Below are positions 17,651 to 20,413 of a stretch of 64,000 nt of DNA, piece by piece (the first letter of the stretch is position 1; each line of letters begins with the position of its first letter). The DNA comes from Herbaspirillum sp. LeCh32-8 (lineage in GTDB: Bacteria; Pseudomonadota; Gammaproteobacteria; Burkholderiales; Burkholderiaceae_D), in the NCBI RefSeq assembly GCF_017814915.1, contig NZ_JAGIPZ010000003.1, positions 248,001 through 312,000 of the forward strand, read 5' to 3'. The translations under genes were made by a program, and so were the position numbers. The notes under the pieces are model-generated. The model had not been told where the DNA came from and ran no database searches. It saw nothing but the letters and a program-made list of their open reading frames with translations.

Positions 17651-19053
<1,403 letters not shown>

Positions 19054-19069
19054 GCCTCCTTCAGCATCA

Positions 19070-19094
19070 GCAGCCGGCGCCAGACGCCGGCTGC
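19070..19094 (+). promoter_or_regulatory. Strong hairpin after mreB (attenuator-like)
   Basis: A perfect 10-bp stem GCAGCCGGCG/CGCCGGCTGC with a 5-nt loop lies 17 nt past the mreB stop. No full T-run follows (GCATTTCTG), so it may pause or partly terminate transcription, or protect the mreB message 3' end, which would favour mreB over downstream genes. Confidence 0.5.
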
Positions 19095-19285
19095 GCATTT
19101 CTGTAGCAAGCAACACCATTACCGGGGAACCGATACGTTCGTCATGACGCAGTTCACACCGACTTGCCCCACGGCGCGGATCACCGTTCCGCCCTTGGCG
19201 CAGGCTCGGCTGGCGGACCGTTCGATGAAGAATGCATCGGCTCCCCTTTTCATATCGTTTTCGACGCAGGAAGTGAGTGCCCCCT

Positions 19286-19327
19286 CCTGCAGCCGGCCGC
19301 AGGCAGCGCATGCTGCGGCCCTGCAGG
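19286..19327 (+). promoter_or_regulatory. Stable hairpin covering the mreC leader and ribosome-binding region
   Basis: CCTGCAG (19286-19292) pairs with CTGCAGG (19321-19327), and GGCCGCAG (19295-19302) with CTGCGGCC (19313-19320), a 15-bp stem with a 2-nt bulge and 10-nt loop. Its 3' arm ends 12 nt before the mreC ATG and includes the only G-rich sequence available as a ribosome-binding site. Confidence 0.6.
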
Positions 19328-19339
19328 CGGCCTGACGCC

Positions 19340-20413
19340 ATGGAAATCCCACCACTCTTCAAGCAGGGCGCCTCGGCCCGCGTGCGCGTCACCATCTTCG
19401 CCCTGTTGTCCGTCGTGATGCTGGTCGTGGACGCGCGCATGCACGTGCTGGGCACGATACGCCAGGGCATCGGCGCGGTGCTCTATCCGTTCCAGACGGT
19501 CGCCATGGTGCCGCGCGACGCAGCCATGAACGTGGCCGACTACTTCACGTCGATCACCGCGCTGCAAAAGGAAAACCAGGGCCTGCGCCAGCAGCAGATC
19601 GTCAATTCGCAGCTGATGCAGCAGGAACGCCAGCTGGCCGCCGAGAACGCGCAGCTGCGCAAGCTGCTGGACATGCAGCAGAAGGTGCCGGTCAAGTCCA
19701 TCGTCGGCGAGATCCTGTACGACGCGCGCGACCCCTTCACCCGCAAGATCATCTTGAACCGCGGCTCCCAGCAGGGCGTGGCCACCGGCCAGCCGGTGAT
19801 CGACGAAGTCGGCATCGTGGGTCAGGTCACGCGCGTGTTTCCGTTCACCTCCGAAGTCACGCTGCTGACCGACAAGGATCAAGCAATCCCGGTCCAGGTG
19901 CTGCGCAACGGCCTGCGCAGCGTGGCCTACGGCCGCGGCCAGACCGGCGCGCTGGACCTGCGCTTCATGCCGGCCAACGCCGACATCCAGAAGGGCGACA
20001 CGCTGGTGACCTCCGGCATCGACGGCGTCTATCCGCCGGGCCTGTCGGTGGCCACCGTGGTGCTGATGGAAACCCGTTCGGCCGACTCCTTCGCCCGCAT
20101 CGTCTGCCAGCCGCTGGCCGGCATCGACCGCCATCGCCAGCTGCTGATCCTGCTGGTGGAACAAAACCTGCCGCCGCGCCCGGAACCTGAAGCCGTCGAT
20201 GAAAAGTCGGCCAAGCTCTTCAAGCGCCGCCTGCGCGACAGCACCCGAGACACCTCCGCCGACGACGCCAACGCCACGCCCAAGGACAAGCCTGCCGACG
20301 AGCGCAAAGGCGCGGCCAACGTGACCCCGCCCGCCGCAGCACCAGCCGCGCCTGCCGCAGCGCCGGCGGCGGCTCCTGCGGCCAAACCGGCCGCCAAGGA
20401 AAACGCACGATGA
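19340..20413 (+). CDS. mreC: Rod shape-determining protein MreC
   Basis: Bitopic inner-membrane protein that links MreB filaments to PBP2. It is 357 aa from the ATG at 19340. A short cytoplasmic N-terminus leads to a membrane helix (residues ~14-32), a coiled coil (~70-110; QKENQGLRQQQIVNSQLMQQERQ region) and two beta-barrel domains (ILNRGSQQGVATGQPVIDE and GDTLVTSGIDGVYPPGL). The last 60 residues are a disordered Ala/Pro-rich tail, longer than in E. coli. Its stop overlaps the mreD start (ATGA). A strong hairpin lies over its leader. Confidence 0.95.
   Translation: MEIPPLFKQGASARVRVTIFALLSVVMLVVDARMHVLGTIRQGIGAVLYPFQTVAMVPRDAAMNVADYFTSITALQKENQGLRQQQIVNSQLMQQERQLAAENAQLRKLLDMQQKVPVKSIVGEILYDARDPFTRKIILNRGSQQGVATGQPVIDEVGIVGQVTRVFPFTSEVTLLTDKDQAIPVQVLRNGLRSVAYGRGQTGALDLRFMPANADIQKGDTLVTSGIDGVYPPGLSVATVVLMETRSADSFARIVCQPLAGIDRHRQLLILLVEQNLPPRPEPEAVDEKSAKLFKRRLRDSTRDTSADDANATPKDKPADERKGAANVTPPAAAPAAPAAAPAAAPAAKPAAKENAR

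Follow-up and report, generated by a model that had tools for sequence, protein, structure and literature searches.

A short reading frame ending at the mreC start in Herbaspirillum and its relatives: a candidate translated leader

Introduction

Short open reading frames (ORFs) that stop close to a start codon and promote translation from it form an established class of elements, and the leader frame in front of mreC described here would be a further case. Cells are generally considered to require more MreB than MreC, and the means by which operons fix such ratios are often obscure. The transcription of mreBCD in Escherichia coli is reportedly the subject of a paper by Wachi et al. from 2006.

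Several described systems resemble this locus in part. In Salmonella, the work on mgtQ describes a translated ORF of 8 codons between mgtC and mgtB, with a strong AGGAGG and with Asp2 and Glu5 codons that matter (PMC8092293). Like the frame studied here, mgtQ lies in an unusually long operon gap, amid stem-loops and by a structured downstream start, and in both cases the presence of the ORF is kept whereas its length varies. The present frame differs in having 63 codons in the window, no well-placed Shine-Dalgarno (SD) sequence and a stop at the next start codon, and in being known from sequence alone. Leader genes with reinitiation, as presented in the main text of Korolev et al. (2016; PMC4833913), have a main distance peak at 10–11 bp (10–13 bp in Proteobacteria) and a minor one at 5 bp. 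They too are unannotated short ORFs that stop within a few nucleotides of a structural gene's start codon and are proposed to raise the translation of that gene; the minor peak is near the 4–6 nt found between the stop and mreC in most Herbaspirillum genomes, whereas the main peak differs, and words starting with 'mre' do not occur in the main text of that paper. Translational coupling, as reviewed in PMC12548453, shares with this locus the adjacent or overlapping stop and start codons (TGATG, TAATG, NTGA) and the weak or hidden downstream start, but the upstream partner there is a gene for a partner protein, whereas here it is a near-neutral short frame. Finally, in Legionella pneumophila a terminator past mreB is reported, together with a single-gene mreB mRNA (PMC4630621). 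A stem-loop follows mreB in both organisms; the Legionella mRNA sizes come from Northern blots, whereas the Herbaspirillum hairpin is known from its nucleotides. A short frame before mreC was not found in the titles and abstract openings of the literature searched, from which subscription papers were mostly absent.

Materials and methods

The window is the whole stretch of DNA analyzed, 64,000 nucleotides of Herbaspirillum sp. LeCh32-8, within a genome of 5.03 Mb. A frame was counted when it started with ATG, had at least 15 codons and stopped within −6 to +4 of the mreC ATG (an 11-nt window). The genus was represented by 34 genomes for frame ends and by 23 named Herbaspirillum-type loci for SD strength, the mreB control and opening cost; the named loci are the best 80 of 303, and the two genus sets overlap. 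In the family sample, 114 of 116 genomes had a match and 64 gaps were read; the set with one genome per genus includes the genome of the window. The order sample comprised 60 genomes, 58 of them with a match, which gave 30 loci; 27 of these entered the counts, the other three being Oxalobacteraceae.

Results

The mreB–mreC gap of the window has 286 nt, from the mreB stop (TAA, 19051–19053) to the mreC ATG at 19340 (Table 1). Two other in-frame starts for mreC were rejected: an ATG at −30, present in the window alone among the 34 genomes, and a GTG at −63, present in the same set only in the window and L003. A 296-nt stretch around the gap matched the genome at its own place alone. The gap as a whole is unusually structured (fold z −5.0; 0/100 shuffles), partly because of a third, larger hairpin at about 19124–19246 that was absent from the preliminary description of this gap; the segment 19118–19245 by itself gave a z of −3.83 (1/200 shuffles). 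When the gap was read in all frames, an unannotated short frame that the preliminary description had missed was found at 19144–19335.

Table 1. Positions of features in and around the mreB–mreC gap, numbered within the window
Feature	Position	Strand	Description
AGGA, SD-like motif of mreB	18000–18003	+	Seen in sequence; 6 nt ahead of the ATG
mreB	18010–19053	+	ORF, 347 aa; identity 96–100% across 12 loci compared
Hairpin 1	19070–19094	+	10 uninterrupted pairs, 5-nt loop, 16 nt past the mreB stop; candidate partial terminator or mRNA 3'-end stabilizer
5' arm GGGGAaCCGA of long-range stem	19124–19133	+	GGGGA is also the SD-like motif of the short frame, 15 nt to its ATG (poor spacing)
Short upstream frame	19144–19335	+	63 codons + TGA; ATG 19144, TGA 19333–19335; stop separated from the mreC ATG by 4 nt
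3' arm TCGGcTCCCC of long-range stem	19237–19246	+	T run 19247–19250 directly after
Block CGTTTTCGACGCAGGAAGTGAGT	19256–19278	+	Strong conservation across 15 relatives, despite a reading frame that differs between two groups
Hairpin 2	19286–19327	+	17 pairs with one 2-nt and one 1-nt bulge; located within the 3'-terminal part of the short frame
AGGCGG, SD-like motif of mreC	19325–19330	+	19325–19327 paired in hairpin 2; SD energy −5.3 kcal/mol
mreC	19340–20413	+	ORF; start set by homology

Frames ending at mreC were identified in 29 of the 34 genus genomes (200 shuffles: mean 2.3, maximum 6), in 34 of the 57 other named loci within the best 80 of 303 (shuffles 4.3, maximum 13) and in 7 of 27 other Burkholderiales (shuffles 1.0, maximum 3); it should be noted that kinship makes these genome counts not independent, and that taking one genome per genus is the sole guard. 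With one genome per genus, 13 of 39 had an ATG frame (500 shuffles: mean 2.0, maximum 6) and 17 of 39 a frame with any start codon, GTG and TTG included (4.3, maximum 11), whereas a frame with its stop at mreC was missing in 22 of the 39 genera. On scanning frame ends from −61 to +26, the window from −6 to +4 was the peak in every set, and the 13 of 39 ATG frames per genus compare with 0–4 in the other windows. The next-highest windows, any start codon being allowed, were −61 to −51 in the genus (9/34; 1/34 with ATG) and −17 to −7 in the other named loci (12/57). No genus excess was observed in a narrower window of −1 to +4 (3/34 versus 1.3). In these loci no such frame ended at the start of mreB, the sole start used for comparison (0/50 and 0/22; 72 of the best 80 of 303 loci usable). 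Across genera the stops adjoin or overlap the mreC start (TGATG, TAAATG, ATGA). The exceptions within the genus were of several kinds: the frame ended at −12 in L004 and, with 43 codons, at −7 in L016, continued into mreC in L035, was present with a TTG start only in L034 and was lacking in L021.

The peptide encoded by the short frame evolves almost neutrally (ratios 0.7–1.0), whereas mreC is constrained. The dN/dS of the frame was 1.00 and 0.72 in two Herbaspirillum clades (10 and 7 genomes, respectively), and substitutions carried no coding signal, neither ratio being below those of the other five frames (0.56–1.31 and 0.61–1.25). In six Herminiimonas-type loci, picked for a recognizable shared peptide, pN/pS was 0.79, and it was 0.83 in the four of eight Collimonas-titled loci whose frame starts 9 nt after mreB. 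For comparison, the first 80 codons of mreC in six and five loci gave pN 0.050 with pS 0.498, and pN 0.069 with pS 0.227. Openness of the frame was examined by neutral simulations that left out L004. Not a single in-frame stop occurred in 14 near-clade genomes, which was equalled in 44 of 2000 simulations with sites kept and in 6 of 2000 with sites shuffled; for 10 near-clade genomes alone the numbers were 121 and 63 of 2000, and in the second clade alone neutral openness was not rejected (705 and 521 of 2000).

A different kind of conservation was found in the letters themselves. In L002–L006 the frame is shifted by one 1-nt indel and restored by a second, and the letters of the block in between have hardly changed; L004 has one further 1-nt deletion. 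These compensated indels argue for constraint on the whole frame and also on the block as nucleotides, and the block CGTTTTCGACGCAGGAAGTGAGT appears from its alignment to be under nucleotide-level constraint. The block also contains AGGAAGTGA, a near-SD sequence, with no ATG seen at the usual distance behind it.

We then compared initiation signals at the starts of the three frames. An AGGA lies ahead of the mreB ATG in all 12 starts listed (11 of them as cAGGAcaa.tcATG), whereas most mreC starts lack a good SD: an energy of −4 kcal/mol or lower was reached in 6 of the 57 other named loci (of the best 80 of 303) and in 6 of the 23 Herbaspirillum-type loci, the window being an exception with its moderate AGGCGG. 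In the 23 Herbaspirillum loci the mreC start cost more to open than that of mreB (11.6 versus 8.8 kcal/mol; Wilcoxon p = 5e-5, 22 pairs); the mreC mean was 8.5 kcal/mol once upstream sequence was removed, where some fall is expected from the shorter sequence. In the other loci (40 of 57 run), mreC was on average cheaper to open (7.6 versus 8.6 kcal/mol for mreB, p = 0.03). By the SD motifs and by the opening cost in the Herbaspirillum loci, mreC may be equipped for weaker initiation than mreB. A trade-off in which the frame goes with a missing mreC SD was rejected (Mann-Whitney p = 0.14 by genome and 0.56 by genus). With regard to the short frame, its SD-like motif lies 14–15 nt from the ATG, which is far for a normal start, and its start costs 17.8 kcal/mol to open in longer context versus 7.3 kcal/mol in 120 nt. 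We ascribe this cost to pairing of the leader with 19237–19246; in such a model ribosomes would load most readily while that arm has yet to be transcribed.

Hairpin 1 is beyond chance by energy. The stretch 19054–19110 that holds it had a fold z of −3.78 and no equally stable shuffle (0/200), and the 10-bp stem that the preliminary description had placed directly after mreB was found as claimed (Table 1). Hairpin 1 is the sole terminator-like site listed within the gap by a terminator scan whose rate was near chance (4 found versus 3.0 expected over 3.5 kb, both strands), and its U-tract is poor (GCATTTCTGT). A hairpin within the first 80 nt past mreB (p ≤ 0.10, 60 shuffles) was present in 19 of the 34 genus genomes: by the same test, 13 of 15 close relatives including the window, three of four genomes with an inserted gene and three of five others, as against none of the 10 genomes of the second Herbaspirillum clade. 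In L004 and L005 the best stem after mreB is a later CCGGCGG stem. The pattern GCCGGCG-N3-8-CGCCGGC occurred 70 times in the genome versus 11 in a read-backwards control, with varied loops in the occurrences listed, and is therefore a common GC-rich palindrome; the possibility that hairpin 1 is a dispersed repeat was rejected. Hairpin 1 may be a partial terminator, with some transcripts ending after mreB.

Pairing of the long-range stem GGGGAaCCGA/TCGGcTCCCC was retained in 94.8% of cells in 15 relatives, with zero changes on both sides. A further hairpin, CCGGCGG..CCGCCGG, is absent from the window but lies upstream of the short frame in its 15 closest relatives, where 91.1% of cells were paired and two pairs had changed on both sides.

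Hairpin 2 had been described as a 15-bp stem ending 12 nt ahead of the mreC ATG; the distance is right, but the stem consists of 17 pairs broken by two bulges. Shuffles folded as well in 21 of 200 cases (19265–19360) and in 48 of 200 (19277–19345), and thus the earlier impression that both stems are too good to be chance applies to hairpin 1 and fails on energy for hairpin 2. Within the 75 nt that precede mreC, 19 of the 34 genomes have an unbroken stem with p ≤ 0.10; the value for the window is p = 0.60. On the other hand, 92.2% of cells of hairpin 2 kept their pairing in the 15 closest relatives, and two inner pairs were changed on both sides in three of these (L007, L015, L018). Compensatory changes, whose absence the preliminary description had named as counting against its proposal, are therefore present in hairpin 2, although these three genomes are closely related and the changes may be one event. 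For hairpin 2, the long-range stem and the CCGGCGG..CCGCCGG hairpin taken together, 0 of 500 shuffles attained the observed covariation score, but 50 of 500 attained the count of pairs with changes on both sides, and 478 of 500 the count of further pair types. The stem has no U-tract on its 3' side, the sequence after it being CGGCCTGACGCCATGG, and is therefore not an intrinsic terminator.

Discussion

The frame end keeps its position in many relatives while the peptide drifts, which suggests that translation of the frame hands ribosomes to mreC. In the explanation that we favor, and consider probable, the short frame is a translated leader whose translation, rather than its product, would deliver ribosomes to the next gene. 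We infer that ribosomes entering after mreB would read the short frame and terminate at its stop, with 4 nt left to the mreC ATG; they would reinitiate at this ATG or, at the least, open up the structured RNA in front of it. The mreC gene has no usable SD in most relatives, and therefore its translation would follow that of the short frame. Selection would then keep the openness and the end point of the frame but not the peptide. Translation of the frame is hinted at indirectly, by its openness against the simulations in one clade and by the compensated indels. In addition, hairpin 1 would let part of the transcripts end after mreB, and the two elements together would keep MreC below MreB, which is the ratio guessed in the preliminary description, reached by a different route. 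The opening cost of mreC in the window is barely altered by upstream sequence, and we therefore put the weight on ribosome handover at the stop/start junction; unfolding of RNA would be a Herbaspirillum addition to it.

A purely transcriptional explanation, in which hairpin 1 (perhaps with the 19124–19246 stem and its T run) ends some transcripts and the open frame is incidental, appears unlikely to us. The shuffle result for hairpin 1 and the recurrence of hairpins of altered sequence after mreB in close relatives agree with it, but it offers no reason why open frames in different genera should stop at mreC, all 10 genomes of the second clade lack the post-mreB hairpin, and the T runs behind the stems are short. 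Direct repression by hairpin 2 as a mask over the mreC ribosome-binding site, as the preliminary description had it, fares worse and seems improbable. The window's AGGCGG does lie partly in the 3' arm, two pairs show compensatory change, and many genomes have a stem before mreC by the 75-nt test. However, the mreC start of the window costs 11.1 kcal/mol to open with the sequence upstream of −15 and 10.8 kcal/mol once it is removed, and this near absence of an effect speaks against a mask. Moreover, the hairpin sits within an open frame running almost to mreC, its energy is inside the shuffle range, the unbroken-stem test is not significant in the window, and most relatives have no SD to be masked.

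The remaining alternatives concern the product of the gap. A small functional protein of the shape machinery as the product of the short frame is quite unlikely: its operon position, conserved start contexts and recognizable peptides within clades would suit such a protein, whereas the substitution ratios in four groups are those of an almost neutral sequence, lengths in Herbaspirillum range from 17 to 80 codons from a conserved ATG, and by eye no kinship is apparent between the peptides of one genus and another. The peptide of the window had no Pfam or NCBIfam match, and weak hits of the peptides of two relatives (HTH_30, E = 0.22; PVV_CTERM, E = 0.0055, with 16.5 bits where the cut-off is 27) were rejected as below the curated cut-offs. 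A structured small RNA, or a target of one, would account for the two nucleotide blocks conserved in 15 relatives (near 19124–19160 and 19237–19278), one of them across a frame change, and for the strong folding of the whole gap. Yet the six Rfam 15 matches at E up to 10 over 17800–20000 all lie outside the gap and below gathering score, and by eye only the GGAACCGA part is recognizable in the second clade; we regard this possibility as very remote.

The translated leader could be carried further, and more speculatively. The long-range stem with its T run takes in the 5' part of the frame in genomes closely related to the window, and so ribosome loading could decide both transcription and translation. 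It is conceivable, though we think it doubtful, that in many Oxalobacteraceae, and patchily in the wider Burkholderiales, the MreC level is set by a leader frame kept for its end point alone, and that in the close relatives of the window ribosome loading gates both transcription past the GGGGAaCCGA/TCGGcTCCCC stem and mreC translation. If true, this would be a translation-sensing gate on cell elongation. More generally, gene callers that depend on length or protein conservation would miss a leader frame that is kept by its position rather than its sequence. Such a frame would offer a concrete handle on MreC, open to testing, across a large bacterial family, and near-neutral peptides together with frame ends that peak at a start codon suggest a comparative test for leader frames elsewhere.

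Other observations in related gaps

The gap varied in several relatives. In four Herbaspirillum genomes (L016, L017, L019 and L021) it measures 590–630 nt. A lipoprotein-like ORF of 114–117 codons (MKKTV...GC) lies on the opposite strand in the gaps of L016 (1109–1462, +) and L017 (1909–2253, −), and an inserted opposite-strand ORF was also seen by eye in L019 and L021. The short frame has 17 codons in L017 and 19 in L019, and is not clear in L016 and L021. Six Glaciimonas-type loci (L105, L161, L162, L166, L169 and L183), with gaps of 210–308 nt, are without a frame ending at mreC and have almost no SD pairing. In L077 and L173 (gap 282 nt), the frame before mreC has 93 codons and is open up to the mreC start; it contains PANAGIH...WIPAFAGTT, which resembles a common dispersed repeat.
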